A DNA stretch of 32,711 bases, taken from positions 1-32,711 of the forward strand of contig JBAXGN010000082.1 in the NCBI GenBank assembly GCA_037139415.1, read 5' to 3'. Under the pieces are notes generated by a model, which was not told the origin of the DNA, ran no database searches, and saw only the letters and a list, made by a program, of their open reading frames with translations. The DNA is from Verrucomicrobiota bacterium (GTDB lineage: Bacteria > Verrucomicrobiota > Verrucomicrobiia > Limisphaerales > Fontisphaeraceae). This document shows positions 11,062 through 32,566 of the stretch, piece by piece (the stretch's first letter is position 1; every line of letters starts with the position of its first letter). The position numbers and the translations under genes are program-made.

Positions 11062-11067
11062 AAGGAG
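11062..11067 (+). promoter_or_regulatory. Strong Shine-Dalgarno site for the GroEL-like mini-protein
   Basis: AAGGAG lies eight bases before the ATG at 11076 and fixes that start over an earlier in-frame codon at 11067. Most genes in this window lack such a clear site. Confidence 0.75.
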
Positions 11068-11075
11068 TGAGAACG

Positions 11076-11594
11076 ATGGGATTATTCGACATTTTCAAGC
11101 GGAAGACGCCTGGCACCCCGCCGCGCATCGGTACGCAACAGACGTCCGACAATCAACCGATCATTAAGAGCGCAAGGGATGCCAAGGCGTTTTTCCTGGG
11201 AGCCACCAAGGATGAGCGGCTGGCTCAATTTCTTGTGGCGGTTGCCGAAAAAGTGGGGCGCGATGGTTACCTCGTGGTGGAACCCGGTGGCGACGGTCAA
11301 CCTTACTCGGCAGAATATCCAAACGATGAACAATGCTCCGCTGGAAATCGCGGAGTTAGCCAAAAAGAGTGCCAAACGGAGTATCAGCGTCTGCGACAAC
11401 AACTGGCCATGGCTCAATCCGATGCTGAACGCGATGCGATTGACCGACAGATCGCCGAGTTGGTGTGGGGAATTGGCACGATCCGGGTAAACGTCAGCAC
11501 TACCCAGGAATTTGAGCGACAGCGCGGCCTGATCCTCGAGACGTGGCAGCAGTTCAAAGTCATCGTAAGAAGCACCCATGATTCAAACTCCTAA
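11076..11594 (+). CDS. GroEL intermediate-domain-like mini-protein
   Basis: This 172-residue protein starts MGLFDIFKRK. Two segments resemble chaperonin GroEL. Residues 46-71 (ending VAEKVGRDGYLVVEPG) match the GroEL stretch around 155-185 (MDKVGKEGVITVEDG). Residues 103-150, with YQRLRQQL, SDAERDAIDRQIAEL and GIGTIRVNVSTTQEFE, match the GroEL stretch around 345-390 (IRQQIEEATSDYDREKL, GGVAVIKVGAATEVE). The equatorial ATPase domain with its GDGTTT motif and nearly all of the apical substrate-binding domain are absent. A short linker (about 72-100) replaces the apical part. It cannot form a normal ATP-driven ring. It might bind a chaperonin or have a new role (inference). It lies alone between the Tat-exported protein and the sigma cassette. 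Confidence 0.72.
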   Translation: MGLFDIFKRKTPGTPPRIGTQQTSDNQPIIKSARDAKAFFLGATKDERLAQFLVAVAEKVGRDGYLVVEPGGDGQPYSAEYPNDEQCSAGNRGVSQKECQTEYQRLRQQLAMAQSDAERDAIDRQIAELVWGIGTIRVNVSTTQEFERQRGLILETWQQFKVIVRSTHDSNS

Positions 11595-11758: not shown

Positions 11759-11786
11759 GTAACCATTGGCATTTCAGCGGCGTTAC
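11759..11786 (+). promoter_or_regulatory. Predicted ECF-sigma promoter of the sigma operon
   Basis: GTAACC (11759-11764), 12 bases, then GCGGCGTTAC (11777-11786). The same arrangement with the same spacing occurs at 13119-13146 upstream of the secreted-protein gene. Counting GTAACC as the -35 and CGTTA as the -10 gives a 16-base spacer, normal for ECF promoters, and suggests autoregulation. GTAAC/GTTAC is also an inverted repeat and could instead be an operator. A sigma70-like pair TTGGCA (11766-11771)/TATTAT (11790-11795) overlaps it. Confidence 0.68.
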
Positions 11787-11814
11787 CTCTATTATGTGCG
11801 GAAGAAAATAATGC

Positions 11815-12411
11815 ATGGACACGGCAACTTTCGATTTGAAAGCCTGCCTCGATCGGGTGCGGCGGCAGAATCAGGATGCTGCCGGTGCCTTGGTCGCGCA
11901 TTTGTTTCCCCTCGTGAAGCGCATCGTACATTCCCACCTGCCGGTCCGGCTGGACGAGGCGGATTTGACGCAAGAGGTGTTCATCAAGCTGTTTGCCCGA
12001 TTGGAGCAATACCAGGAACGCGACGGCATCCCCTTCGAACACTGGGTGGCCCGCCTGGCGGTGCGCACCTGCCTGGACAGCCTGCGTGCCGAGAAACGGC
12101 GGCCCGAATTGCGCTGGGCCGATCTCGAACCGGAGGAAACCGCATGGCTCGATTACCTGGTATCAGCCACCGAAGCGCCGCCCGACGCGTCCCCGGCATC
12201 CGCCCGGGAAATCCTGGAGAAATTACTGGCGCAGTTGCCGGTCAACGACCGCCTCGTCATCCATTGGATGGACCTCGAAGAAAAGACGGTCAAGGAAATC
12301 AGCCAGTTGACCGGGTGGAGTGGGACGCTGGTAAAAGTGCGGGTTTTTCGCGCGCGGCAACGTCTGAAGAAGCTGGCCGCGAGTTACAAGCAAAAGGCAA
12401 AATATGAATGA
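11815..12411 (+). CDS. RNA polymerase ECF-type sigma factor
   Basis: This 198-residue protein has sigma region 2 at about 25-100: LVAHLFPLVKRIVHSHLPVR, then DLTQEVFIKLFARLEQYQ and a WVARLAVRTCLDSLR helix. After an acidic linker comes region 4 at about 140-190: LLAQLPVNDRLVIHWMDLEE, then VKEISQLTGWSGTLVKVRVF as the helix-turn-helix. There is no region 1 or 3, as expected of ECF factors. GGAAG lies about ten bases before the ATG at 11815. The stop codon overlaps the start of the next gene by eight bases, so the three-gene cassette (11815-13104) is one operon. The shared motif upstream suggests it controls its own operon and the gene at 13201. Confidence 0.93.
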   Translation: MDTATFDLKACLDRVRRQNQDAAGALVAHLFPLVKRIVHSHLPVRLDEADLTQEVFIKLFARLEQYQERDGIPFEHWVARLAVRTCLDSLRAEKRRPELRWADLEPEETAWLDYLVSATEAPPDASPASAREILEKLLAQLPVNDRLVIHWMDLEEKTVKEISQLTGWSGTLVKVRVFRARQRLKKLAASYKQKAKYE

Positions 12412-12697
12412 ATTTGAACAACGCTGGCAGGAATGCGCCCGGCAGAGCCGGAAAGCCACAGCGGCGGAACCGGCCCCTATGCCGGGCTTCGCGGCCACGG
12501 TATGGGCGCAAAGTCGCCGTGCTGAGCCAACCACCCCACCGGCGGCGGTCTGGCTGCGGTTCGCCTTGCGTGCCTTGGCGGCGGTGAGCGTATTGGCCCT
12601 TGTTTGTCTCACCTTGGAAATCGTCAACCCGGAAAACAGCAGCGGCCTCGTGCCGCATGTGGAGGACACCGTGACCGAACTGTTCTGGATGTTATGA
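12404..12697 (+). CDS. Small anti-sigma-like membrane protein
   Basis: This 97-residue protein has a cytoplasmic N-terminus (MNEFEQRWQECARQSRK, then PMPGFAATVWAQSR). One transmembrane helix follows (WLRFALRALAAVSVLALVCL), then a short periplasmic tail rich in acidic residues. Its position, overlapping the ECF sigma gene by eight bases, and its topology suggest an anti-sigma factor. No HxxxCxxC zinc anti-sigma motif is present, so the assignment rests on context. Its last bases overlap the next gene by ATGA. Confidence 0.72.
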   Translation: MNEFEQRWQECARQSRKATAAEPAPMPGFAATVWAQSRRAEPTTPPAAVWLRFALRALAAVSVLALVCLTLEIVNPENSSGLVPHVEDTVTELFWML

Positions 12698-13104
12698 AAA
12701 TTTCGTATTCATGGAAAGTGACGGGCGCATTGGCGGCGCTGATTCTGCTTAGCGTGGTGGTCGGCGTGTTTCTGGGCATTCGCCTGGCTCGCCTTAAACA
12801 GGCCCAGGCTTCCAACCCCGCCCGGTGGAATGAAACCGTCATGAAATCACTGGATCAAAAGCTCAAGCCCACCCCCGAGCAGCGCCGCCAGTTCCAGACC
12901 GACATTGACACGGCGGTGGATGAACTGAAACGCATCCGGGAAGAGACCATCCAGCGCAGCACCAAGGTCATCGGCAAGCTGGTGGCCGATGTGGATCAGC
13001 GGCTCACCCCGGAACAAAAGGCCGCGTTTGAATCCATGAAACCAAAGGCGCAGGACTTGAATTCGCTGGATGTGCTGAAGGTGGAACCACGCAAGAAACC
13101 GTAA
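12694..13104 (+). CDS. Membrane-anchored CpxP/Spy-like periplasmic protein
   Basis: This 136-residue protein has an N-terminal signal anchor (WKVTGALAALILLSVVVGVF). A long, charged helical domain follows. It carries two copies of an LTPEQ-like motif, KPTPEQRRQFQTDID near 53-67 and RLTPEQKAAFESM near 105-118. This is the helical hairpin pattern of CpxP/Spy/CnrX-type proteins, which sense or buffer envelope stress. It starts at an ATGA overlap with the anti-sigma-like gene, as expected of a sensor in an ECF system (inference). The first in-frame codon upstream is a TTG deep in the previous gene and is not used. Confidence 0.75.
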   Translation: MKISYSWKVTGALAALILLSVVVGVFLGIRLARLKQAQASNPARWNETVMKSLDQKLKPTPEQRRQFQTDIDTAVDELKRIREETIQRSTKVIGKLVADVDQRLTPEQKAAFESMKPKAQDLNSLDVLKVEPRKKP

Positions 13105-13118
13105 ACGATCTTTCCAGT

Positions 13119-13146
13119 GTAACCTGGATGGTTGGTGCGGCGTTAC
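13119..13146 (+). promoter_or_regulatory. Second copy of the predicted ECF-sigma promoter
   Basis: GTAACC (13119-13124), 12 bases, then GCGGCGTTAC (13137-13146): identical in both blocks and spacing to the site at 11759-11786, while the 12 bases between differ. It lies 54 bases before the ATG at 13201. Confidence 0.68.
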
Positions 13147-13200: not shown

Positions 13201-13806
13201 ATGAAAAACAAAATGACCGTTACCCTCGTACTCCTGGCCGCCGGCTTATCGCTGGCCCAGGCACAATCCAGTGCCTCGCGCGAAGAAAGCCTGAAGGCGG
13301 CCTTCGCCCTAAGCGCTGACCTCAGCCAGATGCTGAATACGCCCATCCCCACCGACCCGGATGTGAAACGCCCGGTGGCGGTGCGCGAAGGCGAGCGGGG
13401 CGCGCTGGCGATGCCGGAATGTAAACTGACACCCGAAACCTTGGCCAAGGTGGGCAAGGACGTGGTGCCGGTCGGCCAGCTTTGGCTGCGGAAGGTGACG
13501 TTGCAGAGTGAGGGCAGGGCCATCCGGGACACCAAACTTCAGGTGGTTGAAATTGCCACCGGCCAACAAACGGCCTCAGTCTCGCTCCATGCCTTGGCAG
13601 TGCAAAAAAATGCCGATGGTAAACTTCAGTTGCTGATCTTCGGCAAGGATAAGGAACCGATCTTAACCGTGCCGCTCAAGGAAATCTCCACCAAGCAGGA
13701 GAGCCCCATCGAAATGACCGGCACCCAGCAGGGCGACGGTGCTGAACTCACGCTCAAGATTGTCGGGAAGTACGAAGCCAGCTTTTCAGTGGGTTCTTCA
13801 GAATAA
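13201..13806 (+). CDS. Secreted protein of unknown function, likely ECF target
   Basis: This 201-residue protein has a clear signal peptide, MKNKMTVTLVLLAAGLSLAQ, with cleavage likely after AQA. The mature part is mixed, with a helical start (SASREESLKAAFALSADLSQ) and later beta strands (GQLWLRKVTLQSEG, TKLQVVEIATGQ, KLQLLIFGKDKEPILTVPL). I recognise no family or catalytic motif. No Shine-Dalgarno site precedes the ATG at 13201; an ATG at 13213 is possible. The upstream copy of the sigma operon motif suggests it is an output of that ECF system, perhaps an envelope protein. Confidence 0.78.
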   Translation: MKNKMTVTLVLLAAGLSLAQAQSSASREESLKAAFALSADLSQMLNTPIPTDPDVKRPVAVREGERGALAMPECKLTPETLAKVGKDVVPVGQLWLRKVTLQSEGRAIRDTKLQVVEIATGQQTASVSLHALAVQKNADGKLQLLIFGKDKEPILTVPLKEISTKQESPIEMTGTQQGDGAELTLKIVGKYEASFSVGSSE

Positions 13807-13858: not shown

Positions 13859-13900
13859 ATGGCGGGTAAAAGATGTCCTATTTTTTACCTGCCATCTTTT
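13859..13900. terminator. Bidirectional hairpin terminator
   Basis: ATGGCGGGTAAAA (13859-13871) pairs with TTTTACCTGCCAT (13883-13895) with one G-T pair. It is followed by CTTTTTG on the plus strand. The hairpin lies between the convergent secreted-protein and AraC genes and contains the AraC stop codon, so it could end both transcripts. Confidence 0.6.
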
Positions 13901-17503: not shown

Positions 17504-20500
17504 ATGAAAATAACGCAAAACTCCATCCAAACCCAAGTTCAGAAGCGCGGTGGCGGGTTGTCTCTGTTGCTACTGGTCCTGCTCGCGCTGCCAGCGACGG
17601 CGGCCAACAAGGTCTGGAACGGCGGCGGCGCGGATGTCAACTGGGGCACTGCTGCCAACTGGGTGGGCGGCATTGCGCCAGTCACAGCGGCGGATAGTAT
17701 CACCTTCACCAACACCGCGCGCATCACTAATTTCAATAACTTGGTTAGCTACTCCAACCTTTGGTTGGAAATACGCGGCACCAACTTTTCCATTGGCGGC
17801 AACGCGTTCACGAACGCGGCCGGCATCACCAATAATAGTGGCGGCAATAACATCATCAGCAATTATATCACGCTGTCGGCATCGCAGACCTTTGCCAATA
17901 ACAGCAACGGCGCCACGCTGATCTTCTGGGGTGGCATCACCAATGGCGGCAGCAACCTGTTCCTGGCGGGCCCCGGCAATTTCACGTTCAACGCGGGCAT
18001 TGATGGCGCGGGTGGTTTGGTGAAAACGAATTCCGGTACGACCATTTTGGCGGCCACCAACACGTTCACGGGTGGCATCAGCAACGGTTTGGGCACGCTG
18101 CAAATCGGCGCGGGCGGTGCCACCGGCGATTTGGGCACCAATTACAGCACGGTGACCAACAACTCAACGTTGGTGTTCAATTTCGGCTACCAAATCACGA
18201 ACAGCTTTACCAACACCATCACCGGCACGGGCCCTATCTTTCTTTCCGGCAACAGCAACGTGGTGGTCTGGCTTTCCGGCACGAATACCTTCACGGGCTC
18301 CATTACCAACAATTCCGGCGGTCTCGGAGTGCGCAACAGCTCCTCCCTTGGGTGGGGAACGAAAACGGTTTCGCTTGCCAACGGGACCACCGGTTGGACG
18401 TTGATGCGCTTGGATGGCAGCGGTGGTGATATTACTTTGAGCAACAACATCAGTTTCATCACCAGTTGGGCGAACGGCACGGTCTATAATGATGCTGGGA
18501 ATAATACCATTGCCGGTAATTTTACCTTGGCCGGTGGCGGTGGGGATACTTATTTCATTGTTAGCAATGGCACTTTAAATCTGTCCGGGACTCTTTCCCC
18601 CAATACAACCTTACGATATTTGAAACTGGGTGGCCCGACAAATGGTACTGTCTCTGGGGTGATTGCCGATGGTGGTGGGGTTAATACACTGGCGGTCAAC
18701 AAAGTGGATGCTGGCACTTGGACCCTTGGCGGTACCAATACCTACACCGGCAACACGGTGATTGGAGCCGGGCGCTTGGTGCTGGCCACCAACGGTAGTA
18801 ATGGTAAAAGCGCCTATATCTTGGCCAACGGCGGGGTGTTTGATGTTTCGGCGGTCCCCGGCGGTTTTTGTCTGAGCAACAATCAGGCCCTGGGTGGCAA
18901 TGGTGGCGTGGTCACGGGCAGCGTGACTGCCTTGCCGGGTTCCTTTATTGTGCCAGGTAACGATGGCACGGCAGGTACTTATACGATCACTAACAGCCTC
19001 ACCATGAATAACGGCAGCGGCATGCGCTACGATCTCTCGACTACGGCGACGAATATGGGTGGTGGAGTGAATGATTTGTTGGTGGTGTCGAATCTGACCT
19101 TGTTGGGCAAGATTAATGTCAATTTTTCATTCATGGGCAAATCCACACCGCTGACCAATACCTATTATACGCTGATCGCCTATCGCGGTACGTTGATCGG
19201 CAATGCTGGGAATTTGACGGCTCCCGCTGGGTATGGTGCCACGTTTGATGATTCGGCTCCCGGCCTGATTCGCGTCAAGTTCAGTGCCGCCATCCAGCGC
19301 AGCTTGGTGTGGAAGGGTGATGGCGTGCAGAATACGTGGGACTTGGGGTTGACCACCAACTGGTTGAATGGCGGGTTGCCGGATGTGTTCTATGGTGGCG
19401 ATACGGTGTTGTTTGATAACTCCGGTTCCAATAATCCGGCGATTAATCTGGGGGCTTCACTGGCCCCAGCGGCGATCATTGTCAATTCTTCAAACAACTA
19501 TACCTTTGCCAGCAACGGAGTGATTGCCAGTGGCAGCTTGACCAAGTTGGGAGCGGGGACTCTTTATATGACCAATGTCGGTGCCAACCTCTACAACGGT
19601 GGTACGTTTGTGGGTGGTGGCACCCTGAAAGTGGGCGTGGCCAACTCCATGGGTGCCAATGCGTCAAGCGTGGTGGCGACCAACGGTGGTCAAGTGGATG
19701 TCAACGGCGTGGATCAATCCGCCAAGGGCTTCACGTACACAGTGAATGGTGTGGGGCCAGATGGGCAGGGCGCAATTAAGAGCACCGCTGGCAGTTTGGA
19801 CGGGGCCAAATCCGGCATAAAAAATGTCATTATGACTGGGGATACCGTATTCGGTGGCACAGCTCGGTTTGACCTTGCCAGCGGCGGTTATATGAATGGC
19901 AATGGCTACCGGATGATTAAGGTGGGCACCAGTACGGTTCCTTTCCGGGGCACGGTGAGCAACATTTCGGAAATTGTCGTCAGTAACGGCACGCTGTATG
20001 GGGAAGCCACCACGCAAATGCAAATGACCAATCTGGTTTCGGTGTATCCGGGCGGTACATTGGCTGCTTATGCGTACGATGGGATGGTGGGACTAACGAA
20101 CTCTACCCGTGTCAACCTCTATGGCGGTATTTTGGGTGGTGGCGGGGCTAGTGCCAACTCAGGTCATCAGGTTTGGATAGGGCCGATTTATGTCTATAAT
20201 GATTCAGCGATGAATGCCACCGCTCTGAGTGCTGGATCGGATACTCGTTTGGACGGCCCCATCAACGGCTCGGCCATGTTGAATGTGCGCGGTAATTCCA
20301 CCCGAGCTTTCATTTTGACCACCAATAATAATACCTATTCCGGCAACTGGACGATTGAAAGCACGGGTGTCCTGCGCCTGACCAATAGTGCCACACCTGG
20401 CACCGGTATCATCTATGACAACGGCTCGTTGGAACTCGCCAATACGAACGCTTATACGCTGTCGAATAATGTGATTGGCACCGGGGCCATGTCCATTCGG

Positions 20501-23500
20501 GCAACCAATGGCGTGACCTTTGATGGCACGGCCAGCGTGAACCTCACGGGGGTGTTGCAAGTTGGCGCGGTGACCAATTACGGCAAGGCCACGTTTAATT
20601 CTGGTGCGAACGTTTCGGTGGGGCAGTTTACGGTTGGTAATCCCACCTCCATTCCTGGGGATGTGATACACAATGGCGGGGCAGTGACGGTGAGTGGAAC
20701 CTTGGGTTTGCGCGTCGGTCACTGGCCGACGGAAATCTCCACGTACACGATGAATGGCGGGACGCTTTCCATCCCCAATGGTCCGCTTTCTGTGGGTTGG
20801 GATGGTGTCGGTTTGTTCAATTTGAACGGTGGTACGGTGGGTGTACTGCGCCTGTCGGTGGATGACAATGGTAACACCGGCGCGCTTGGCGGCACCAACG
20901 AAACCTTCACCCTGTCGGGTGGACGTATCAATCTCGGAGCGGGCGGCATCACCACGGCCTCGACGGATGGCGGCTACCGCATCGCACTGGGTGGCGGCAC
21001 CTTGGGGGCGTGGACCAACTGGTCCAGTTCCGCCGCTATCGTGCTGACTAACGCTCCGGGTACCGTGAGCATTGACCCGAGCGGTAACACCATCACTCTT
21101 TCCGGCTCGTTGTCCGGTCCGGGTGGGTTCTCCAAGGATGGCCCTGGCACGCTAACTGTTTCAGGTAACACCCTGTACCAAGGCAATGCCACGCTCAATA
21201 ACGGTGTGCTGTTGGTGAATGGCGTGTTGGGCACCAATAACTCTGGGGCCATCAATGTCACTGCCGGCACGCTGGCTGGCACCGGCGTGTTGCGCGCCCC
21301 GGTGACCATCAATGGCGGCACCCTCTCCGCTGGGGCGGTCCCTGGAGCGGGAACGCTGACGGTGTCCAATAGCGTGGTGTTTAACGGCGGTTCCATGCTG
21401 ATTGACCTGACCAACAATGCCACCGGGTTGAATGACTTGGTGGATATCAAGAACGACTTGACCTTGAATGCCAACGTGCCGGTCGCCTTCAACTTTCTGA
21501 CGAATGGTCCGGCCCTTGGTACTGCGTACACCATTGCCAAATTCGGTGGTGTTTTCAGCGGCTCCGGTTCCTTTGTGAACGCCTCGCATTACAGTGGCAC
21601 GATTTCCGTGGCGACTCCCAATGTGCAGATTACCTTTACTGGAGGCAATTCAAATCTCACCTGGCGCGGCGACGGCGCGGCGAATGTGTGGCAGGCGAAT
21701 ACCACCCCGTTGAATTGGTGGAATGGCGCGGCGCTTGATTTCTTTGGCGCGGGCGACGTGGTCACCTTTGATGGCTCCGGGTCCAACAATGTGCCGGTAA
21801 ACTTGGTGGGCGTGGTGACGCCCTCCAATATCACGGTCAATGCGGGCATTGATTATGTGCTGACTGGCAGTGGTCGGATCGCCGGTTCGGCGAGCTTGAA
21901 CAAGAGCGGCACGGGCATGTTGACCATCAGCAATGCGCACGAGTTCACGGGGAATACCATTATTTCGGGCGGCACGGTGAGCATTGGGTTGGACAGCAGC
22001 CTGGGCGTGATTCCGGCGGCGGCTACGCCGGGTAAGATTCAAATCAACGGTGGCACCTTGCAAGCCTACGACACCTTTATCCTGAATGCCAATCGCGGTA
22101 TCTATCTTGGGCCGTCTAGCGGTAGCGGCACGGGCACCATCAAGGTGCTGGGCACGAATATCGTCGCTTACAGCGGTATTATCACCAGTAACGGCACCAG
22201 TCTGGGCGGTTTGATCAAGACTGGCCCTGGTCAATTGACTTTGAGCGGCTACAATACTTATTTGAATGGCACCACCGTCAGCGAGGGAACGCTGGCTCTG
22301 GGTGTGGGCGGCGGGACCGGTACAATCCGCAATAACCTGATCGTGCAACCAGGCGCAACCGTGGTCTCGCTGGTCAACGACGCGATGGGGTACACCACTG
22401 GGCTGCAGGTGACCAACATAACCATTAATGGTGGTTCGGTGTTCCATGCCAGCACGCTTAACCTCACGCTGTCTGGTATCACCATCAACATGACGGGTGG
22501 TAACTTTTCGGCGACCAATGGCGGTGGTCGCCTTGATCTGCTCAACAACGGCACCCTGTACGCGGTGGTGAATACGTATGCCAGCAGCACGCCTTCAGTC
22601 ATCGGTGGCACCAACTTGTATCTGCGGCAGGCGACCAACCTCTTTACGGTGGCGGATGGCAGTCTTGGCAATGACTTGGTGGTCGCCGCTCCGATCAATG
22701 AGACTGCGGCAGGCATGGGTATCTATAAGGCTGGTCCGGGCGTGATGACCTTGCAATGCACCAATTTCTACTCCGGCCCTACATTCATCAATGCCGGCAA
22801 ACTGGCGCTTGGGAGCAATGCCTCCCTCTCCAACTCGCCCAATATCACCCTGGCCAGTGGCGCGACCTTCGATGTCTCGGCGGTGACCAATGGGTTTGTA
22901 TTGAATACCAACCAAACCTTGAATGCCTCGGGTACGGTCGTTGGGCGTTTGACGATTGCCAGCAATGCTACGGTGTCTCCTGGCGGCAGTTTGGTGGCCG
23001 GAACGCTGGTAGTTTCCTCGAACCTGACCTTGAACAATGGCAGCAAACTGTATTGGACGCTGACCAATGTGACCACCGTTGGTGTTGGGGTAAACGACCT
23101 GATCAATGTGCAGGGCGACTTGGTTATCGCCGGTTTTGTCACCAATACCATCAACCAACTTGCGGCGCAACTGGCCGCTGGCAGTTATCGCCTCATCAAC
23201 TACAGCGGCGCGCTGATCGGCGCTCCGGCGAACATGATCGTGGTGAATGGCAGTACCACGAATCGCTACAGTTATACGCTCGATTTCAGTGTCACCAACC
23301 AGGTCAACTTGGTTGTGGTCGGCACGCCTTCTGCTCTCACCTGGCGCGGCACTGGTACCAACAATGATTGGACCGCCGTGGCGCCTTGGCCGTTGGATTG
23401 GTTCAATGGAGCCAGCATGGATCGCTATTTCAATGGGGATACGGTATGGTTTGACGACTCCGCCTCCGCGACCTTTGTCAATCTGCCCGGCCAGATTTTC

Positions 23501-26500
23501 CCGGGGGCGGTTACCGTGAGCAATAGCGGCACCTATACCTTCTTTGGCGCGGGTAAAATCAGCGGGGTGACCGGTGTTACCAAGCAGGGGCTTGGTATGT
23601 TGGTGTTGAGCAATGCCGCGAGCGATTTCACCGGCCCGATTGTGGTACGGGCGGGCATCTTGCGCATTGGCGCCTCCAATGCCATGGGTTTTGCCTCCAG
23701 CATCACCGTCAATTCCAATGCCCAATTGGATTTCTTCGGCGTTCCTGGCTCTAATAACGTGACGCCATATAATTTCGTCATTGCCGGGCCTGGTCCTGGT
23801 GGTGATGGTGCCCTGAAGAATTGGAATTACAGCACCATGAACGTGGGTATCCGAAACCTGACCTTGTCTGATGACGCCACTCTCAACGTGATCAGCCGCA
23901 TTGATATTTGTTCGGCGGCGGGTACGCGCGGTGGTGTGGTTAATGGGAACGGCCACCGGTTGACCAAAATTGGCGGCGAGCAGATGCCAATCCACGGCAC
24001 CGTCACAAACCTCACCGAATTGATTATCAACAATGGCTTGGTGTATGGAGAAACGGCCCACTACAGCTTGGGCACCAATGTTACCGTGAATACACCCGGA
24101 CGCGTGGGCGCCTACGGCGCGCTTACCAATAACTGCGTCATCACTATGAACAGCGCGACTTTGGAGGCGACTGGTTCTGGGACGGCCACTTGGTTGGGGC
24201 CGCTTACCATGAACGGATCGTGCATCTTCAATACGCTCGGCCAGTCCGCTGGAACGACGCCACAGGATATCCGCTATCTGGGCGCGATTGGCGGCTCGGG
24301 TGGCATTTACAAAATTGCCCCGGCCATCACCAATGGTAACGCCCTGATTCTGGGCGGCACCAACACCTACACCGGCGATACTGTCATTGCGGGTGGTCGC
24401 ATCACGATGCTCGCCACCGCCTCCATCAGCAACAGTGCCGCAATTCGGCTTGGCACCAATGTGGTCGGTGGCACCAATGCCGTTTTTGATGTCTCGGCGT
24501 TCACCAGTGGTTACACGCTGACCAACCAGACCCTTGGCGGCTTCGGCATCGTCACCGGTTCTGTGTTCGTGGCGGATGGTGGTATTCTGTTGCCCGGTCG
24601 GGAAAATATTCCGGGAACCCTGATGTTCAGCAACAATCTCACGCTGTCCAATGCGGTGTTGAAGATTGACCTGACCAACTCGACGTTGGTGGGCAGTGGC
24701 ACCAACGACCTGCTCTTCGTGCAGGGCGGTCTCACGCTCCTTGGCAATACCGTGGTCCAACTGAATATCCTGGATACGAACTTGCCGGTGAACGGTGTGT
24801 TCACCATTCTCACCAACTTGGGGGCGCGCACCGGGTCGGGAACCATCAGCGTGGTGGCCAATTCGCGTTACACCTTCTCGCCCACCCTGAATGCCAATTC
24901 GATCACCGTTACGTACACGGGCAACTCAGCCCCGGCCAACCTGACCTGGTGGGGGGATGGCATCAATAACGTTTGGGATCTGAACACCACCCCGAATTGG
25001 ACGAATAATAATGGGACAGCCACCGATGTATTCAAACAACTGGACCCGGTGACCTTTGACGATACCGGTTCCCCGACTCCGGCGGTCACTCTGAGCGGTG
25101 CGTTGCGCCCGCAGTTCATTACGGTGAATGGCACGGCCAGTTACACGTTTGGTGGTACGGGCAGCTTGGACGGAGTGGGCAACCTGACTAACAACAGCAC
25201 CGGCATGCTGACGCTTCAGACCATCAATACGACGCTCGGTAAGGTCGTTGTCAACGCCGGCACGGTGTCAATCAGTGATGAACGGAATTTGGGTGGGAAC
25301 CCGAACAGCTATATTCCTGATCAACTGACGCTGAATGGCGGCACCTTGGCCGCCACCAGCCCCTTGGCGCTCAATAGCACGAATCGCGGCCTGTGGGTGG
25401 GCGCGAATGGCGGTGCGCTGGCACCGGCTGCCGGAACCACGCTTACCTTGTTGAATCCGATCGTGGGCACTGCGACCACCCCTGGTGCCGCACTGCATAA
25501 GCTTGGTGGCAGCAGTACCTTGATTCTTGCCGGCAATAATCTCCTGACCAACATCTTTGCGATTGACGCTGGTTACGTGCAGGTCGGCATGGGCTCGAAT
25601 AACGGAACCTTGGGGGCGGCCATCACCGTCACCAACAATGGGTGGCTGACCTTTAATCGCGGTTCATTTACCATCACCAATAACATTGTCGGTACCGGTA
25701 TGGTGGTCTTTGCGTATTCCAACTTGGTATCTCTGGGGGCGGGTGCTCCTGCTTACACCGTGCAGAATACGGGCCCGGCCAATACCTGGTCGGGTGGCAC
25801 CTTGATCACCAATTCGCGCGTTGCTGCCGCTACTGCGACCAGCATGGGCACCGGCCCGATCACGGTGACCACCAACGGACAGATTGAAGTGCGCACCGCG
25901 TTTACCAATGCGCTGCTCTTGAACGGCTATGGATGTTTGGGGGTGGCTCCGGATTATCGTTATGGCGCGCTTCGGCTCGCGGGCGGAACGGTTTATGGCC
26001 CCGTTACTCTTCAAGGGAATACGCGTATTTCGGCGTACATTAATAGTGCTGGCACCATCGCCAGCGCCATCACGGGGTCGTATGATATTGATTTTGGCGA
26101 TGATAATGGCGCGGGTGGCAGCATCACGCTGAGCGGTACTAATAGTTTCCCCAGCGCTACGCTGACCAGCGTCAGATTGGTCATGGGCAACAGCAACGCG
26201 TTACCCAATGCGGCGACCATTCGCATGTATGGCATCACGAACAGCGTGGGCGGCGCGATTGACCTGAATAATACCACGCAGACGGTGGCTCGGCTCCTCG
26301 GTGATCAACAGTATTCTCCCAACGCCTATATCAGCAACGGCACATTGCGGGTGACCACCAGTGCCAACGATACCTATAACGGGCGCATCCAACTTAATGG
26401 CACTCTCAGCATGGATGGTAGCGGCGCTCTCACTTTGGGTGGCAACACCGACAATGTGAGTGGCAAAGTCACCGTGAACAGCGGCACTGTGATCCTTGGC

Positions 26501-29500
26501 AAGGCGAGTTCCGGCACGATTCGCGCGATAGGTGGACTCCTCACGGTGAATGGCGGTCTCCTGCAACTGAGCGGTACCGGTGGGGACCAGATTTCCTCTG
26601 CGGCCGCCGCGCAAATGAACGGCGGTACGTTTGACTTCAATGGCCGCGACGAGGGCTGGGATGCCCTGAACGGCACGGCTGGAGTTCTCTTGAACAATGT
26701 GGCGGGTACCAACAACATGGTGACACTGGGGCAAAATAATGCCACCAGCACCTTTGGTGGTGTTATTCAGGACGGTGTGGGTACGCTCAGCCTCAGCAAG
26801 TCGGGTACGGGTACAATCACGCTTACCGGGACGAATACCTATTCCGGGGTGACGTTGGTGACCAATGGTAATCTGGCTGTCAACGGCAAGTTGGCGGGTA
26901 CCAATGCCGTGATTGTGGGTTCTTCCGGCGGTGGCCTGCTGGGTAACGGCACCGTCATGGGACCAGTCACCGTCATGAACAGTTCGGCCATTTCTCCGAA
27001 CGGCTCGGGCGCGGCGGGCACGCTGACCCTGGCCAGTTCGCTGACCCTGAGCAATAATTCCAAGCTCAACTGGAGTTTGACCAACAACACGGCGATTGGT
27101 GGCAACAATGATCTCTTGATAGTGGGCGGTGATGTGGTCATCGGTGGTGCGGTGACGTTGACGATCTACCCGTTGACCAGTCAACTGGCGGCAGGCACGT
27201 ATCGAATCATGAACTACAGTGGTAACCTGATCGGCAATGCCACGAACATTACGGTGGTGAATAGTGTGTCGGGTACGCATACTTATGCGATTGATGCCAG
27301 CACCCCCGGCCAGATCAATCTCGTGGTCAGTGCCGGCGTGTTGACCGGTAACCGCGTTTGGCGCGGTTATGTGAGTGCCAACTGGAATACGACCGAGTAC
27401 AACTGGTTTAATGGCGCATCCAACGACCTGTTTAACACCGCGTCGCCGGTGATCTTTGATGACTCGGGCTTGCTCACCACCATCGCGATTCCGGGTACGG
27501 TTCAGCCCGGTTCCGTCCTGGTGGATTCGTCCAAGAATTACACGCTGGGCGGTGGCAATGGCAAGATTACGGGGACGACCGGGATTACCAAGCAGGGTGC
27601 TGGCATCCTGACTTTGAGCACAACCAACGATTTCACGGGTCTGATCCAGGTGAATGCCGGAATTCTGAAAGGAAGTTGCACCAATGCATTTGGTGCCACG
27701 CCGATGATTACCGTGGCCAATGGCGCACAACTGGACCTCAATGGTATCACCTATAGTAAAAGTTATAATGTTACCATCCAAGGTTTCGGCCCGGATGGCC
27801 GTGGCGCGGTGCTCAATAGCGTCAATTTTCAAGGTGTCCATGGTGGTGGGGTGGCGCAGATCGCGAATGTCACACTGACTGGGGATGCCGGGGTTGGATC
27901 ACCTGTCGTTGCGGCGGTCTGGGACATCTATGGTGGTGTGATTGATGGCAAGGGCTACAAACTCACCAAGAAGGGGCCGGGCAGATTGGATTTCCAAGGT
28001 GGTTGCCGGGTGACTAATCTGAGTGAGTACATTGTGGCCGAAGGCATTGCCTATTCGGAAGGAACATCGTTGAAGGACAACTTCGGCAGTAATCTCGTCA
28101 TCATGGCGGGAGCCGTGGTCTCCCCGATGAATAATTACACGAATACTGGCAGTGTGGTGCTTAATGGTGGTACCTTGGCTGTGGGTGGTAATACCGATGC
28201 GGCCCGCTGGCGTGGACCGATCACCCTGAACACAAATTCGATCTTGGGCTATTATTTGATTTATAATAATCCGGCTACCTATTCCAACTTCCTGTATATC
28301 GAAGGCCCGATGAGTGGCCCGGCCGGCTTTACCAAGATCGGCACTACCAACACGACGTTCCTCACCAATGCCAATACCTATACGGGCGATACGATCATTG
28401 CGGAAGGGCGCCTGAATCTCGCGGCGTCCGGTTCGATCGCCAACAGTGCGAATATCATCGTCAGCAATCTGGCCTATTTGGAAGTGACGAACAACAACTT
28501 CGTCCTCTCCGCCAATCAAACGTTGGGTGGCGGCGGCACGGTCTTCGGCCAGGTGGCGGATTCCGCCGGCGCTTTCATCCAGCCCGGCGGTGCCAGTAAG
28601 ATTGGCACGCTGACCATTAACAGCAATTTGACGCTGAATGGTGGCGGCACCCTGTTGTTTGACTTGAGTAGCGTCAACACCACCGAAGGTGGCACCGACA
28701 ACGACCTGTTGAATGTCACCAATCTGGTCATCAACGGCCACACGGTGATCAAGCTCTCGCCGATCAGTGGCGCTTTCGTCAACGACTATTACACCTTGAT
28801 CAACTATGTCACCGCCACTTTCGATCAGGCTAATTTGACGGTTCAAGTGGATATGAGTGGCGCGTCCGCCACGTTGGATTACAGCGTGCCGAACAAGATT
28901 CGGGTGCTGGTGACCAGCGGAACGCCCGTGAGCCTCACGTGGATTGGTGACTACGATGGCAATGGCAGGACGAATTGGGATGTGAATGTCACGGATAGCT
29001 GGACGGATGGTTCCTCGCCATTGAAGTTCTTGTTGGCTGACTCGGTGTTGTTCGATGACAGCATGAGCAGCGGCACCACGGATGCGAACTTGGTGGGTTC
29101 GCTGGTGGCCGGATCAGTGACCGTATCCAGTGCGAATTACCTGTACCGGTTCCTGGGTAGCGGCAGCTTAACCACCCCCACATTTGGCAAGAGCCTTGCG
29201 AATACGCTGGTTTTGGCCAATAGCGGTCTGAACAGTTTTGGTGCGCTGCAAATTAGCGGCGGCACGATGATCTTGGCCAACTCGGGAATCAATGTGTGGC
29301 CGACCACCGATCTCCAACCTGGCACTACGCTCCAGGTGGGCAATGGCGGTTTTGCCGGGGCCTTGCCAGCCGCCACCACCATTGCGAATGCCGGAGCCCT
29401 CGTGTTCAATCGGGTGGATGATCTCACGGTGGCCAATGTGATTAGCGGGGCGGGTAGCCTTACCAAGCAAGGCGGCGGCGTTCTGTCTTTGGGTGGCATT

Positions 29501-32500
29501 AACCCGAATTACACGGGTGCGATCATCGTGGGCGCTGGAACACTGAAGCCTACTGCGTTTGCGGCGGTCAGCAACGCCAGTTCCATCGTGGTGCAATCCG
29601 GCGCTACCCTCGATGTGAACGGACTCAACTTCATGGATCGCCAGGTCACCATCGCCGGTGTGGGTTTGAATGGTTTGGGTGCCGTGGTTAATAGTGGAAC
29701 CTTGCAGAGTAACGCGTTGTGGCAGTTGACCCTGACGACCAATGCCACGCTGGGTGTTGCACTCAATAGCTGGGGCCTGCGTTCTCAATTGGGAACCAAT
29801 GCCACCGTTAAAAGTAGCGGACAGCCCTATAAACTGACCAAGGTCGGCGCTGGTATGCTTGGGCTTTGGGATGCGACAGTGGATCCGGCTTTGGGTGATA
29901 TTGATATCACCGCCGGTAGCATCCAGTTTGCCTATGGCACCAATCTGGCGGGTACGCTGGCCGGCAATCCCGCCAGCAACGTGTTCGTGCGCGCCAACGC
30001 CACGCTGGACCTCTATTTATTGAGCAACGTATTCAACAAGGTGGTGGTGCTGGACCTTGGTTCCACGTTGTACAATAACGTTGGTACCAACATTATTGGC
30101 GGCCCGGTGAAGGTGAACGGGAATGCCTTCGTCAATGTGGCTACCAATACCCTGGTCCTGACCAATGATGTGACTGGCGCTGGCACGTTGACCAAGAGCG
30201 GTGGTTACATTCTGCAAATCGGCAATACTAATACGGTGGGCACGCTGAACGTGCCAGTGAATATCGCCAGCGGCACGCTGCAATTTGCCCGCAGTGATGC
30301 CTATACCTATACCAACAATATCTATGGGGTTGGCACCGTGCAGCAACTGGCTGGCAGTGGTCCGCTGACGCTGGCTGGCGCCACAAACTTCATGGCCAGC
30401 CTGATCGGGCAAGCGGGACAGAATAACCCCATTATCCTCGCGTCCGGAACCACCAATTACTTCTCCGGCGGCGTGTACATTGGCCGAAACATTGCTAGCA
30501 GCTTGGTGATTCAGACGAACGCCAAGGTTTTGGCGCAGTACATCTCGATCGGCGATATTGGGAATGTGCCGGGCAATGTCACCCAACTGGGTGGCGATGT
30601 CATCGTGAATAACTCGCTGCGCGTGGCGCATTATCCCACCACCGGTTCCTATGTGATGGGCGGCGGCACGCTCTCCATGGTTGGAATCCCTTCGGCGGTG
30701 GTTAATCAGCCAATTGGTGCTGAGCAAAACGGGATTATCTACATTGGCGTGGATGGCACCGGCACCTTCATCCAAACGAACGGTGCGGTTTCCGCCCATG
30801 GCATTGTTCTGGACGCCCGGAATGATACGGCGGGAACCGATACGTACACCCTGGAAGGTGGTACGGTTATCTTGGGTCCGTCGGGCTTCAAGAGCGGCGG
30901 TTTGGATACCAACACCACATACCTGATTAACTTGGGTGGTGGCACGGTGAGTGCGTGGTCGAACTGGAACAGTTCGTTGAAGATGACGTTGACTGGTATC
31001 AACGGCAATACGATCTTCAATCCGTCCACGAATACCATCACCCTGAATGGCGTGCTTTCTGGCACAGCCGGTCTGGTCAAGCTGGGCGTTGGCACCCTGG
31101 CGCTGAATGCCACCAACACCTTTACAGGACTGGTGACGGTTTCTGAGGGTGGACTGACGGGGAATGGCGTGCTGGTGGCCCCGGTGACGGTGACCAGTGG
31201 CGGGGTGATGTCCATGTTATCTGGCTCGATCAATACCTTCACAATCAGCAATAACTTGACGCTGGCGGGTAATACCGTGCTGGAAATGCATCGCCAGTTT
31301 ACGCCGAACTGCGATCTGATCACCGGTATCTCCACCCTGACCTTGGGTGGCACGCTTACCTTGACGAACATGGGGCCGGCACCGCAACTCGGTGATACGT
31401 TCAAGCTGTTCAATGCGCAGATTACGCTGGGCGCGTTCAGCACGATCAACCTGCCGGCGTTACCGCTGGGCTCATACTGGGATACCTCGAAGCTGACGGT
31501 GGATGGCACGTTGACCGTGGTGGGACTGCCGGTGATCACGCAGAATCCGCAACCGGCGAGCCTGACGACAGGCGTGGGCTCGAATGCCACGTTCACGGTG
31601 ACGGCGACCGGTCTGCTGCCGCACTACCAATGGTACCTGAATAACACGGTGCCGGTGGGGGTGGACAATCCGGCCCTCGCCTTGACCAACCTGCAAATGA
31701 CCAACAACGGTCAGTACTCGGTAGTGGTGTATAATGGGGCGGGCTCGGTGACGAGCACGGTCCCGGCAACCTTGGTGGTCACGAACACCTCAAGCACACC
31801 GATCGGCTTGGTCATCACCCCTTCACCAACCAACACGGTGGATGTGGGTAACAAGGCGGAGTTCACCGCTACCGTGACCGGTGGCAGTGCGCCCATTGAC
31901 TTCTACTGGTACAAACTGCCGAACCTGACCGCGCCAGTAGGCATGGGTAACAACTACACCAGTGCCGTGGTGACGTGCCTGAGCGAAGGCGATGCCTATC
32001 AGGTGGTGGCGAGTAATCTGGTGGGGATGGCGACCAGTTTGGTGACCTACGTGGAAGTCCGGGATACCAACGCCCCGGCGTTCAATCCGGCGGTGGTGAC
32101 CACCAACGTGATGCTGCCGCAAGGAACCAACTTCAGTGTGGCAGTGGGCGTGGCGGCCAATTGCAACCTGGCAACCTACCGCTGGTACGTGAATGCGACG
32201 AACTTGTTGGCGAGCCAAACCACGCCAACGCTGAACCTGTCGAGCCTGAAGCTCAATGATGCGGGCACCTATACGTTGATCATGTCGAACAAGTACGGGC
32301 TGTCTCCGATTGGGACGGCGGCAGTGGTGACGGTAACATACTTGGTGGAGAACCCGATGGTGATAACGCTGGGGACCACGTTCCAGACCACGGTGACGGC
32401 GGAGCCGAACCGGGCGTACTGGTTGGAGGCACGGGACAGCCTGACGGAAGGAACCTGGCAGTTCATCATCGGAGTGACGAACGTTACGGGACCGCAGGTA

Positions 32501-32566
32501 TTGCAAGACGCGGCGGCGACCGCGGGCTTCAAGTTCTACCGGATCGGCAGTGCGTCGGCACCGTAA
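17504..32566 (+). CDS. Giant secreted autotransporter-associated beta-strand repeat protein
   Basis: This 5020-residue protein has a signal peptide (LSLLLLVLLALPATAA, about 20-35). Seven super-modules follow, each opening with a W-x-G/N-W...NG...D...FDDSG segment. They start near nt 17605, 19300, 21650, 23330, 24930, 27350 and 28925. Each closes with an NDLL...YTLINYSG segment. Between them lie at least 16 copies of the autotransporter-associated beta-strand repeat, typified by GTWTLGGTNTYTGNTVIGAG and GTITLTGTNTYSGVTLVTNG. The product is very rich in Asn, Thr, Gly and Ser. The C-terminus has three Ig-like domains (nt 31528-32340) and a short end domain finishing FKFYRIGSASAP. No autotransporter beta-barrel, LPxTG or PEP-CTERM anchor is visible. 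A long beta-solenoid adhesin or matrix protein is the likely form (inference). Confidence 0.92.
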   Translation: MKITQNSIQTQVQKRGGGLSLLLLVLLALPATAANKVWNGGGADVNWGTAANWVGGIAPVTAADSITFTNTARITNFNNLVSYSNLWLEIRGTNFSIGGNAFTNAAGITNNSGGNNIISNYITLSASQTFANNSNGATLIFWGGITNGGSNLFLAGPGNFTFNAGIDGAGGLVKTNSGTTILAATNTFTGGISNGLGTLQIGAGGATGDLGTNYSTVTNNSTLVFNFGYQITNSFTNTITGTGPIFLSGNSNVVVWLSGTNTFTGSITNNSGGLGVRNSSSLGWGTKTVSLANGTTGWTLMRLDGSGGDITLSNNISFITSWANGTVYNDAGNNTIAGNFTLAGGGGDTYFIVSNGTLNLSGTLSPNTTLRYLKLGGPTNGTVSGVIADGGGVNTLAVNKVDAGTWTLGGTNTYTGNTVIGAGRLVLATNGSNGKSAYILANGGVFDVSAVPGGFCLSNNQALGGNGGVVTGSVTALPGSFIVPGNDGTAGTYTITNSLTMNNGSGMRYDLSTTATNMGGGVNDLLVVSNLTLLGKINVNFSFMGKSTPLTNTYYTLIAYRGTLIGNAGNLTAPAGYGATFDDSAPGLIRVKFSAAIQRSLVWKGDGVQNTWDLGLTTNWLNGGLPDVFYGGDTVLFDNSGSNNPAINLGASLAPAAIIVNSSNNYTFASNGVIASGSLTKLGAGTLYMTNVGANLYNGGTFVGGGTLKVGVANSMGANASSVVATNGGQVDVNGVDQSAKGFTYTVNGVGPDGQGAIKSTAGSLDGAKSGIKNVIMTGDTVFGGTARFDLASGGYMNGNGYRMIKVGTSTVPFRGTVSNISEIVVSNGTLYGEATTQMQMTNLVSVYPGGTLAAYAYDGMVGLTNSTRVNLYGGILGGGGASANSGHQVWIGPIYVYNDSAMNATALSAGSDTRLDGPINGSAMLNVRGNSTRAFILTTNNNTYSGNWTIESTGVLRLTNSATPGTGIIYDNGSLELANTNAYTLSNNVIGTGAMSIRATNGVTFDGTASVNLTGVLQVGAVTNYGKATFNSGANVSVGQFTVGNPTSIPGDVIHNGGAVTVSGTLGLRVGHWPTEISTYTMNGGTLSIPNGPLSVGWDGVGLFNLNGGTVGVLRLSVDDNGNTGALGGTNETFTLSGGRINLGAGGITTASTDGGYRIALGGGTLGAWTNWSSSAAIVLTNAPGTVSIDPSGNTITLSGSLSGPGGFSKDGPGTLTVSGNTLYQGNATLNNGVLLVNGVLGTNNSGAINVTAGTLAGTGVLRAPVTINGGTLSAGAVPGAGTLTVSNSVVFNGGSMLIDLTNNATGLNDLVDIKNDLTLNANVPVAFNFLTNGPALGTAYTIAKFGGVFSGSGSFVNASHYSGTISVATPNVQITFTGGNSNLTWRGDGAANVWQANTTPLNWWNGAALDFFGAGDVVTFDGSGSNNVPVNLVGVVTPSNITVNAGIDYVLTGSGRIAGSASLNKSGTGMLTISNAHEFTGNTIISGGTVSIGLDSSLGVIPAAATPGKIQINGGTLQAYDTFILNANRGIYLGPSSGSGTGTIKVLGTNIVAYSGIITSNGTSLGGLIKTGPGQLTLSGYNTYLNGTTVSEGTLALGVGGGTGTIRNNLIVQPGATVVSLVNDAMGYTTGLQVTNITINGGSVFHASTLNLTLSGITINMTGGNFSATNGGGRLDLLNNGTLYAVVNTYASSTPSVIGGTNLYLRQATNLFTVADGSLGNDLVVAAPINETAAGMGIYKAGPGVMTLQCTNFYSGPTFINAGKLALGSNASLSNSPNITLASGATFDVSAVTNGFVLNTNQTLNASGTVVGRLTIASNATVSPGGSLVAGTLVVSSNLTLNNGSKLYWTLTNVTTVGVGVNDLINVQGDLVIAGFVTNTINQLAAQLAAGSYRLINYSGALIGAPANMIVVNGSTTNRYSYTLDFSVTNQVNLVVVGTPSALTWRGTGTNNDWTAVAPWPLDWFNGASMDRYFNGDTVWFDDSASATFVNLPGQIFPGAVTVSNSGTYTFFGAGKISGVTGVTKQGLGMLVLSNAASDFTGPIVVRAGILRIGASNAMGFASSITVNSNAQLDFFGVPGSNNVTPYNFVIAGPGPGGDGALKNWNYSTMNVGIRNLTLSDDATLNVISRIDICSAAGTRGGVVNGNGHRLTKIGGEQMPIHGTVTNLTELIINNGLVYGETAHYSLGTNVTVNTPGRVGAYGALTNNCVITMNSATLEATGSGTATWLGPLTMNGSCIFNTLGQSAGTTPQDIRYLGAIGGSGGIYKIAPAITNGNALILGGTNTYTGDTVIAGGRITMLATASISNSAAIRLGTNVVGGTNAVFDVSAFTSGYTLTNQTLGGFGIVTGSVFVADGGILLPGRENIPGTLMFSNNLTLSNAVLKIDLTNSTLVGSGTNDLLFVQGGLTLLGNTVVQLNILDTNLPVNGVFTILTNLGARTGSGTISVVANSRYTFSPTLNANSITVTYTGNSAPANLTWWGDGINNVWDLNTTPNWTNNNGTATDVFKQLDPVTFDDTGSPTPAVTLSGALRPQFITVNGTASYTFGGTGSLDGVGNLTNNSTGMLTLQTINTTLGKVVVNAGTVSISDERNLGGNPNSYIPDQLTLNGGTLAATSPLALNSTNRGLWVGANGGALAPAAGTTLTLLNPIVGTATTPGAALHKLGGSSTLILAGNNLLTNIFAIDAGYVQVGMGSNNGTLGAAITVTNNGWLTFNRGSFTITNNIVGTGMVVFAYSNLVSLGAGAPAYTVQNTGPANTWSGGTLITNSRVAAATATSMGTGPITVTTNGQIEVRTAFTNALLLNGYGCLGVAPDYRYGALRLAGGTVYGPVTLQGNTRISAYINSAGTIASAITGSYDIDFGDDNGAGGSITLSGTNSFPSATLTSVRLVMGNSNALPNAATIRMYGITNSVGGAIDLNNTTQTVARLLGDQQYSPNAYISNGTLRVTTSANDTYNGRIQLNGTLSMDGSGALTLGGNTDNVSGKVTVNSGTVILGKASSGTIRAIGGLLTVNGGLLQLSGTGGDQISSAAAAQMNGGTFDFNGRDEGWDALNGTAGVLLNNVAGTNNMVTLGQNNATSTFGGVIQDGVGTLSLSKSGTGTITLTGTNTYSGVTLVTNGNLAVNGKLAGTNAVIVGSSGGGLLGNGTVMGPVTVMNSSAISPNGSGAAGTLTLASSLTLSNNSKLNWSLTNNTAIGGNNDLLIVGGDVVIGGAVTLTIYPLTSQLAAGTYRIMNYSGNLIGNATNITVVNSVSGTHTYAIDASTPGQINLVVSAGVLTGNRVWRGYVSANWNTTEYNWFNGASNDLFNTASPVIFDDSGLLTTIAIPGTVQPGSVLVDSSKNYTLGGGNGKITGTTGITKQGAGILTLSTTNDFTGLIQVNAGILKGSCTNAFGATPMITVANGAQLDLNGITYSKSYNVTIQGFGPDGRGAVLNSVNFQGVHGGGVAQIANVTLTGDAGVGSPVVAAVWDIYGGVIDGKGYKLTKKGPGRLDFQGGCRVTNLSEYIVAEGIAYSEGTSLKDNFGSNLVIMAGAVVSPMNNYTNTGSVVLNGGTLAVGGNTDAARWRGPITLNTNSILGYYLIYNNPATYSNFLYIEGPMSGPAGFTKIGTTNTTFLTNANTYTGDTIIAEGRLNLAASGSIANSANIIVSNLAYLEVTNNNFVLSANQTLGGGGTVFGQVADSAGAFIQPGGASKIGTLTINSNLTLNGGGTLLFDLSSVNTTEGGTDNDLLNVTNLVINGHTVIKLSPISGAFVNDYYTLINYVTATFDQANLTVQVDMSGASATLDYSVPNKIRVLVTSGTPVSLTWIGDYDGNGRTNWDVNVTDSWTDGSSPLKFLLADSVLFDDSMSSGTTDANLVGSLVAGSVTVSSANYLYRFLGSGSLTTPTFGKSLANTLVLANSGLNSFGALQISGGTMILANSGINVWPTTDLQPGTTLQVGNGGFAGALPAATTIANAGALVFNRVDDLTVANVISGAGSLTKQGGGVLSLGGINPNYTGAIIVGAGTLKPTAFAAVSNASSIVVQSGATLDVNGLNFMDRQVTIAGVGLNGLGAVVNSGTLQSNALWQLTLTTNATLGVALNSWGLRSQLGTNATVKSSGQPYKLTKVGAGMLGLWDATVDPALGDIDITAGSIQFAYGTNLAGTLAGNPASNVFVRANATLDLYLLSNVFNKVVVLDLGSTLYNNVGTNIIGGPVKVNGNAFVNVATNTLVLTNDVTGAGTLTKSGGYILQIGNTNTVGTLNVPVNIASGTLQFARSDAYTYTNNIYGVGTVQQLAGSGPLTLAGATNFMASLIGQAGQNNPIILASGTTNYFSGGVYIGRNIASSLVIQTNAKVLAQYISIGDIGNVPGNVTQLGGDVIVNNSLRVAHYPTTGSYVMGGGTLSMVGIPSAVVNQPIGAEQNGIIYIGVDGTGTFIQTNGAVSAHGIVLDARNDTAGTDTYTLEGGTVILGPSGFKSGGLDTNTTYLINLGGGTVSAWSNWNSSLKMTLTGINGNTIFNPSTNTITLNGVLSGTAGLVKLGVGTLALNATNTFTGLVTVSEGGLTGNGVLVAPVTVTSGGVMSMLSGSINTFTISNNLTLAGNTVLEMHRQFTPNCDLITGISTLTLGGTLTLTNMGPAPQLGDTFKLFNAQITLGAFSTINLPALPLGSYWDTSKLTVDGTLTVVGLPVITQNPQPASLTTGVGSNATFTVTATGLLPHYQWYLNNTVPVGVDNPALALTNLQMTNNGQYSVVVYNGAGSVTSTVPATLVVTNTSSTPIGLVITPSPTNTVDVGNKAEFTATVTGGSAPIDFYWYKLPNLTAPVGMGNNYTSAVVTCLSEGDAYQVVASNLVGMATSLVTYVEVRDTNAPAFNPAVVTTNVMLPQGTNFSVAVGVAANCNLATYRWYVNATNLLASQTTPTLNLSSLKLNDAGTYTLIMSNKYGLSPIGTAAVVTVTYLVENPMVITLGTTFQTTVTAEPNRAYWLEARDSLTEGTWQFIIGVTNVTGPQVLQDAAATAGFKFYRIGSASAP
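31528..32340 (+). other. Three C-terminal Ig-like domains of the giant protein
   Basis: Domain 1 (31528-31785) starts PVITQNPQPASLTTGVGSNA and has YQWYLNN and the NNGQYSVVVYNGAGSVTS end strand. Domain 2 (about 31800-32062) has FYWYKLPN and DAYQVVASNLVG. Domain 3 (about 32080-32337) has YRWYVNATN and DAGTYTLIMSNKYG. The Trp and (D/N)xGxY pattern is typical of I-set-like folds. Confidence 0.8.

Follow-up and report, generated by a model that had tools for sequence, protein, structure and literature searches.

Two identical bipartite sites before an ECF sigma factor operon and an adjoining secreted-protein gene are very probably promoters of one circuit in a Verrucomicrobiota bacterium

What reads the two identical bipartite sequences that stand upstream of an ECF sigma factor gene and of a nearby secreted-protein gene in a bacterium of the order Limisphaerales? 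Both lie in the window, that is, the whole stretch of 32,711 nucleotides that was analyzed, and a sequence-only reading had proposed that they join the two genes into an autoregulated ECF regulon. Here we report an analysis of this locus, of the 7.9-Mb genome to which it belongs, and of related genomes. The two motifs are very probably promoters used by the ECF sigma factor for its own operon and for the neighboring gene, named T. The features of the locus are as follows.

11759..11786, + strand: P1, predicted ECF promoter of the sigma operon (exact motif, same site before orthologous sigma genes), with -35 GTAACC at 11759-11764, -10 CGTTAC at 11781-11786 and a spacer of 16.
11815..12411, + strand: ECF sigma factor, 198 aa (Pfam Sigma70_r2 and Sigma70_r4_2 above cut-off, TIGR02937).
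12404..12697, + strand: Y, probable anti-sigma factor, 97 aa, with one apparent membrane helix (position, conservation in orthologous operons).
12694..13104, + strand: X, membrane-anchored LTXXQ (CpxP/Spy-like) protein, 136 aa (weak LTXXQ match, homologues, helical model).
13119..13146, + strand: P2, predicted ECF promoter of T (exact motif, same site before 28 of 50 T genes), with -35 GTAACC at 13119-13124, -10 CGTTAC at 13141-13146 and a spacer of 16.
13201..13806, + strand: T, secreted beta-rich protein, 201 aa, predicted regulon member (occurrence in the order, P2 site).

The sigma factor carries Sigma70_r2 at residues 26-96 and Sigma70_r4_2 at residues 132-184, and its TIGR02937 score is 74.5 bits against a cut-off of 42.9. 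It contains regions 2 and 4 only, without region 3 or 1.1, as do ECF (group IV) factors, and it resembles the E. coli sigma-E and SigW chains. The start of Y overlaps the sigma stop codon and the start of X overlaps the stop of Y, and thus the three genes are probably translated as one operon. Searches of Pfam and of PDB sequences returned for Y neither a family match nor similarity to a known anti-sigma factor, and a zinc motif is absent from the 97-aa protein, whose N-terminal part has a conserved pattern (W, AR, P-F-GFATRV). General ECF biology and the position of Y in the operon make an anti-sigma role probable.

The third protein, X, scores just under the cut-off for LTXXQ (PF07813; E=1.2e-4, 23.2 bits, cut-off 24.3), and LTXXQ is found in 11 of its 23 homologues at E<0.01, while seven of the 23 match Metal_resist. 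It possesses an N-terminal membrane anchor, two LTPEQ-like motifs and a predicted structure that is all helix (pLDDT 90); profile matches to Spy and CpxP chains are weak, and a fold search with the model gave no informative PDB match. By analogy with other ECF systems, X may act as a sensor or chaperone. Just upstream of the operon, a 175-aa frame (11067-11594) matches GroEL models around residues 337-393 (E=3e-7) and is either a GroEL fragment or a small unrelated protein.

No Pfam match or known family was found for T, and a fold search with its structure model (pLDDT 78) returned no informative PDB match. The gene is present in 49 of 320 genomes of the order and was not found in 287 other genomes drawn from the phylum; the named records that contain it are from uncultured Limisphaerales and other Verrucomicrobia. 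A T homologue also occurs in a record labelled Akkermansia muciniphila (CAMAUZ010000062.1; L256), a species name that is probably wrong. An AraC-family gene at 13878 adjoins T, and the last half of the window is filled by a + strand open frame of 5020 codons (17504-32566), corresponding to a giant protein.

A pattern search of the window recovered GTAACC-N12-GCGGCGTTAC on the + strand at 11759-11786 and 13119-13146, both copies being exact as the sequence-only reading had claimed, and no further match with up to three mismatches allowed. That reading had also called for a scan of the whole genome, which yielded three exact copies in 7.9 Mb, where about 0.006 are expected from base composition. 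The third copy (C244:2300-2327, - strand) points at a gene for a secreted thioredoxin-like protein (AhpC-TSA/Redoxin), whose start lies 172 nt downstream. When only the core GTAAC-N16/17-CGTTA is required, the genome yields 12 matches, versus 44 for the reversed pattern; besides the three exact copies, these comprise nine that fall in long open frames or are not followed by a convincing gene start, and as nearly all lie within coding frames, they were treated as chance matches and not as targets. A sigma-70-like promoter, TTGGCA-N18-TATTAT, overlaps P1 at 11766-11795 (0.5 expected by chance) and could provide basal expression of the operon.

Searches with X as query revealed that the sigma-Y-X arrangement is widespread in the order, and among the closer sigma genes the start is usually preceded by (t)GTAACC-N15/16-CGT(T/C)A. 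Allowing one mismatch, the motif is found upstream of 28 of 50 T genes (a perfect 11-base core in 20, one mismatch in eight more; 0.03 predicted by shuffles) and upstream of 48 of 97 sigma genes (0.21 predicted), related sequences being counted as they come, so that these counts are not independent events. The motif was not detected in any of the 50 gene bodies used as controls, and its reversed form likewise gave zero. The T genes with a site span about 15 families of the order. Seven of them (in G101, G282, G097, G018, G004, G051, and G049) are unlinked, meaning that no sigma operon lies within the examined flank of 1.5-2 kb, and therefore the site belongs to the T gene itself, not to a linked sigma operon. 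In the remaining 22 T regions, and in about half of the sigma regions, there is no site within one mismatch of the CGTTA form; many of these sigma regions have CGTC, GGTC or TGTC instead, and the rest have no clear site.

What the relatives have in common is (t)GTAACC followed, after a spacer of 15 or 16 whose last bases are mostly GG, by CGTTA; conservation does not extend to the GC ahead of this GG or to the last C of the motif. Throughout the order, -35 (t)GTAACC and -10 CGTTA lie a short way before orthologous sigma operons and T genes, always in the same orientation. At the sequence level, this conserved predicted site has the form of the autoregulated bipartite promoter, with a spacer near 16, that is typical of ECF factors. 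The proposed reading as an ECF promoter with a spacer of 16 thus extends to orthologous sigma operons and T genes, and the result that would have spoken against it, absence from orthologous operons or random scatter, was not obtained, at linked and unlinked loci alike. In one relative (G041:C64; L050, ~330-930), the sigma gene is disrupted in its 5' part, which is out of frame and has given way to sequence similar, on the opposite strand, to a portion of another gene; this is due either to an insertion or to an assembly chimera, and the T promoter of that genome is intact.

Could the two copies instead resemble each other by chance or duplication, without regulatory meaning? A loose genome search (up to three mismatches) gave 102 matches, fewer than the 204 of the reversed control, which speaks for this reading; however, the three exact copies far exceed the expected number, the position of the site is conserved across families, and the spacers of the two window copies are unrelated in sequence, as the earlier reading had noted, so they are not a copied segment. 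We consider this explanation hardly credible. The GTAAC/GTTAC symmetry had also left room for an operator, in which a GTAAC-N18-GTTAC inverted repeat would bind a dimeric regulator such as the AraC-like protein encoded at 13878. Both window copies and the C244 copy are indeed symmetric, and the AraC-family gene is adjacent to T, but among 75 related sites full inverted symmetry is kept in only 18. In these sites GTAAC is nearly invariant, mostly preceded by T, and CGT is mostly preceded by GG and followed by T or C and then A; the base needed for a complete mirror image varies, and 15 of 28 T promoters have T there. Spacers of 15 and 16 both occur across the related sites, and the sites track the sigma operon, not the AraC gene. 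Neither the conserved two-fold symmetry nor the fixed spacing of a palindromic operator was found, and the loss of symmetry in most sites together with the two spacings argues for a promoter. An ECF promoter accounts better than an operator for this pattern of conservation and covariation, and we regard the operator as improbable.

A similarly improbable alternative, to which we give marginally more weight than to the operator, is that the motif is read by another ECF paralogue or by several, and that the sigma factor at 11815 is not the main reader of P2. This genome contains a second sigma-Y-X operon (C26) with GTAACC-N16-GGTCAC, the GTAAC -35 is common to all paralogues, and several unlinked T genes occur in genomes for which the search with X turned up no operon other than a CGTC-type one. 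Against this, in about 20 genomes T lies directly behind a CGTT-type operon and has the same -10 form, and the CGTT and GTC classes are sharply distinct at several columns of their sigma sequences, region 2 included, a difference to which shared descent contributes. The variants of the elements also go together: the -35 forms GTAACG/GTAACA (G073-G076) and the -10 form CGTC (G051 and G152-G154) occur at both the sigma and the T promoters. Exceptions are G004, G018, and G112, where the -10 of T and that of the sigma operon found differ (CGTT versus CGTC). The sigma factor encoded beside P1 and P2 is kept as their predicted reader.

Further candidate targets came from pattern searches of 25 related genomes, each of which has one to five exact GTAACC-N16-CGTTA sites, many of them being those of the sigma operon and T. 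Six other sites precede secreted redoxins, at 18-26 nt before the start codon in G103, G105, G317, and G121 and at 8-15 nt in G319 and G026; those in G103, G105, and G319 are divergent from the sigma promoter itself. Six more, mostly near the start codon, precede N-methylated pseudopilin-type proteins (G095, G101, G103, G104, G253, and G265). Two paralogous secreted proteins of no known family (L310 and L311, in G265) have the exact site 71 nt before the start. The other exact sites appear to be chance occurrences within coding sequence. For the relatives, this points to secreted redoxins and pseudopilin-type proteins as apparent further targets, which suggests a response to envelope redox, folding or secretion stress; binomial values for an enrichment of either group depend on an assumed gene frequency of 1% and carry no weight here. 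The redoxin sites, which belong to families other than that of the C244 protein, also make the C244 site believable, though the orthologues of this thioredoxin-like gene have no site and it was rejected as an order-wide target. The C244 protein is probably a third target, one peculiar to this genome, unless its site is coincidental.

Comparison with characterized systems places this operon among sigma, anti-sigma and Spy-like gene sets. The same gene order, found in the window and around X homologues, is that of CirY/CirZ/Spy in Phocaeicola vulgatus, where deletion of the anti-sigma gene increased the expression of sigma and spy as well as of two neighboring genes that are transcribed separately (PMC13114119). 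Similarly, the sigma operon and the adjacent gene analyzed here have one promoter motif in common. The targets of CirYZ-Spy, a carbohydrate-binding hydrolase and a glucosaminidase/LysM protein (PMC13114119), are unlike the predicted T, redoxin, and pseudopilin-type targets, and the phylum is another; the likeness considered here is one of gene order and regulation. CirY/CirZ/Spy is a close experimental parallel.

CnrYXH and NccYXH of Cupriavidus metallidurans likewise consist of a short one-helix anti-sigma factor, an anchored LTXXQ/Metal_resist-type sensor, and an ECF sigma factor. The sigma gene, however, is last in those systems and first here, so that the Y-X-H order is absent, and no efflux genes stand beside the operon. 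The metal-ligand set of CnrX includes histidine residues. The 136-aa sequence of X contains zero His and zero Cys, and because the CnrX ligand set is thus lacking, metal sensing of the CnrX type is unlikely. CpxP and Spy share LTXXQ motifs and a helical sequence with X, which differs from them in keeping an N-terminal membrane anchor, in residing in a sigma operon, and in having no known control of the CpxAR or BaeSR type.

The promoter elements also have precedents. A spacer of this length and a GTAAC -35 are known for ECF promoters such as those of Corynebacterium glutamicum sigma-D, which have GTAAC(A/G) at -35 and GAT at -10 (PMC6338062). The -35 is thus as here, whereas the -10 is GAT in place of CGTTA and the regulon is unrelated.

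The evidence as a whole makes us confident that P1 and P2 are promoters of the sigma factor at 11815, which would form a self-regulated envelope-stress switch with Y and X as its putative controllers. In the proposed circuit, Y would keep the sigma factor at the inner membrane, and membrane-anchored X, with its LTXXQ domain outside, would sense or buffer envelope stress. Such stress would free the sigma factor, which would then transcribe its own operon from P1, a positive autoregulation that would also refill Y and X, and T from P2. Stress release and positive autoregulation are modelled on the general biology of ECF factors. The proposal that the sigma operon and T form one autoregulated circuit is supported by conservation, and the circuit seems somewhat larger than first suggested, extending to redoxins and pseudopilin-type proteins. 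No description of this sigma system was found in the literature searched; it is an undescribed but not unexpected ECF/anti-sigma/Spy-like operon of the CirYZ-Spy type, whose promoter code is unusually clear and evolving. More tentatively, and with somewhat less than even confidence, we propose a new envelope stress pathway, peculiar to this order, in which a tethered Spy-like sensor releases an ECF sigma factor, with a regulon of T, redoxins, and pseudopilin-type proteins, and with paralogues that have evolved separate -10 specificities (CGTT, CGTC, and GGTC) on a shared GTAAC -35.

For this large and mostly uncultured order, the analysis defines a sigma factor, its predicted promoter and its candidate targets from sequence alone. 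The steady link of the family-less T to this promoter is the first clue to its role, possibly in envelope stress, and the series of paralogues with matched sigma and promoter changes offers natural material for studying how ECF factors choose their promoters.
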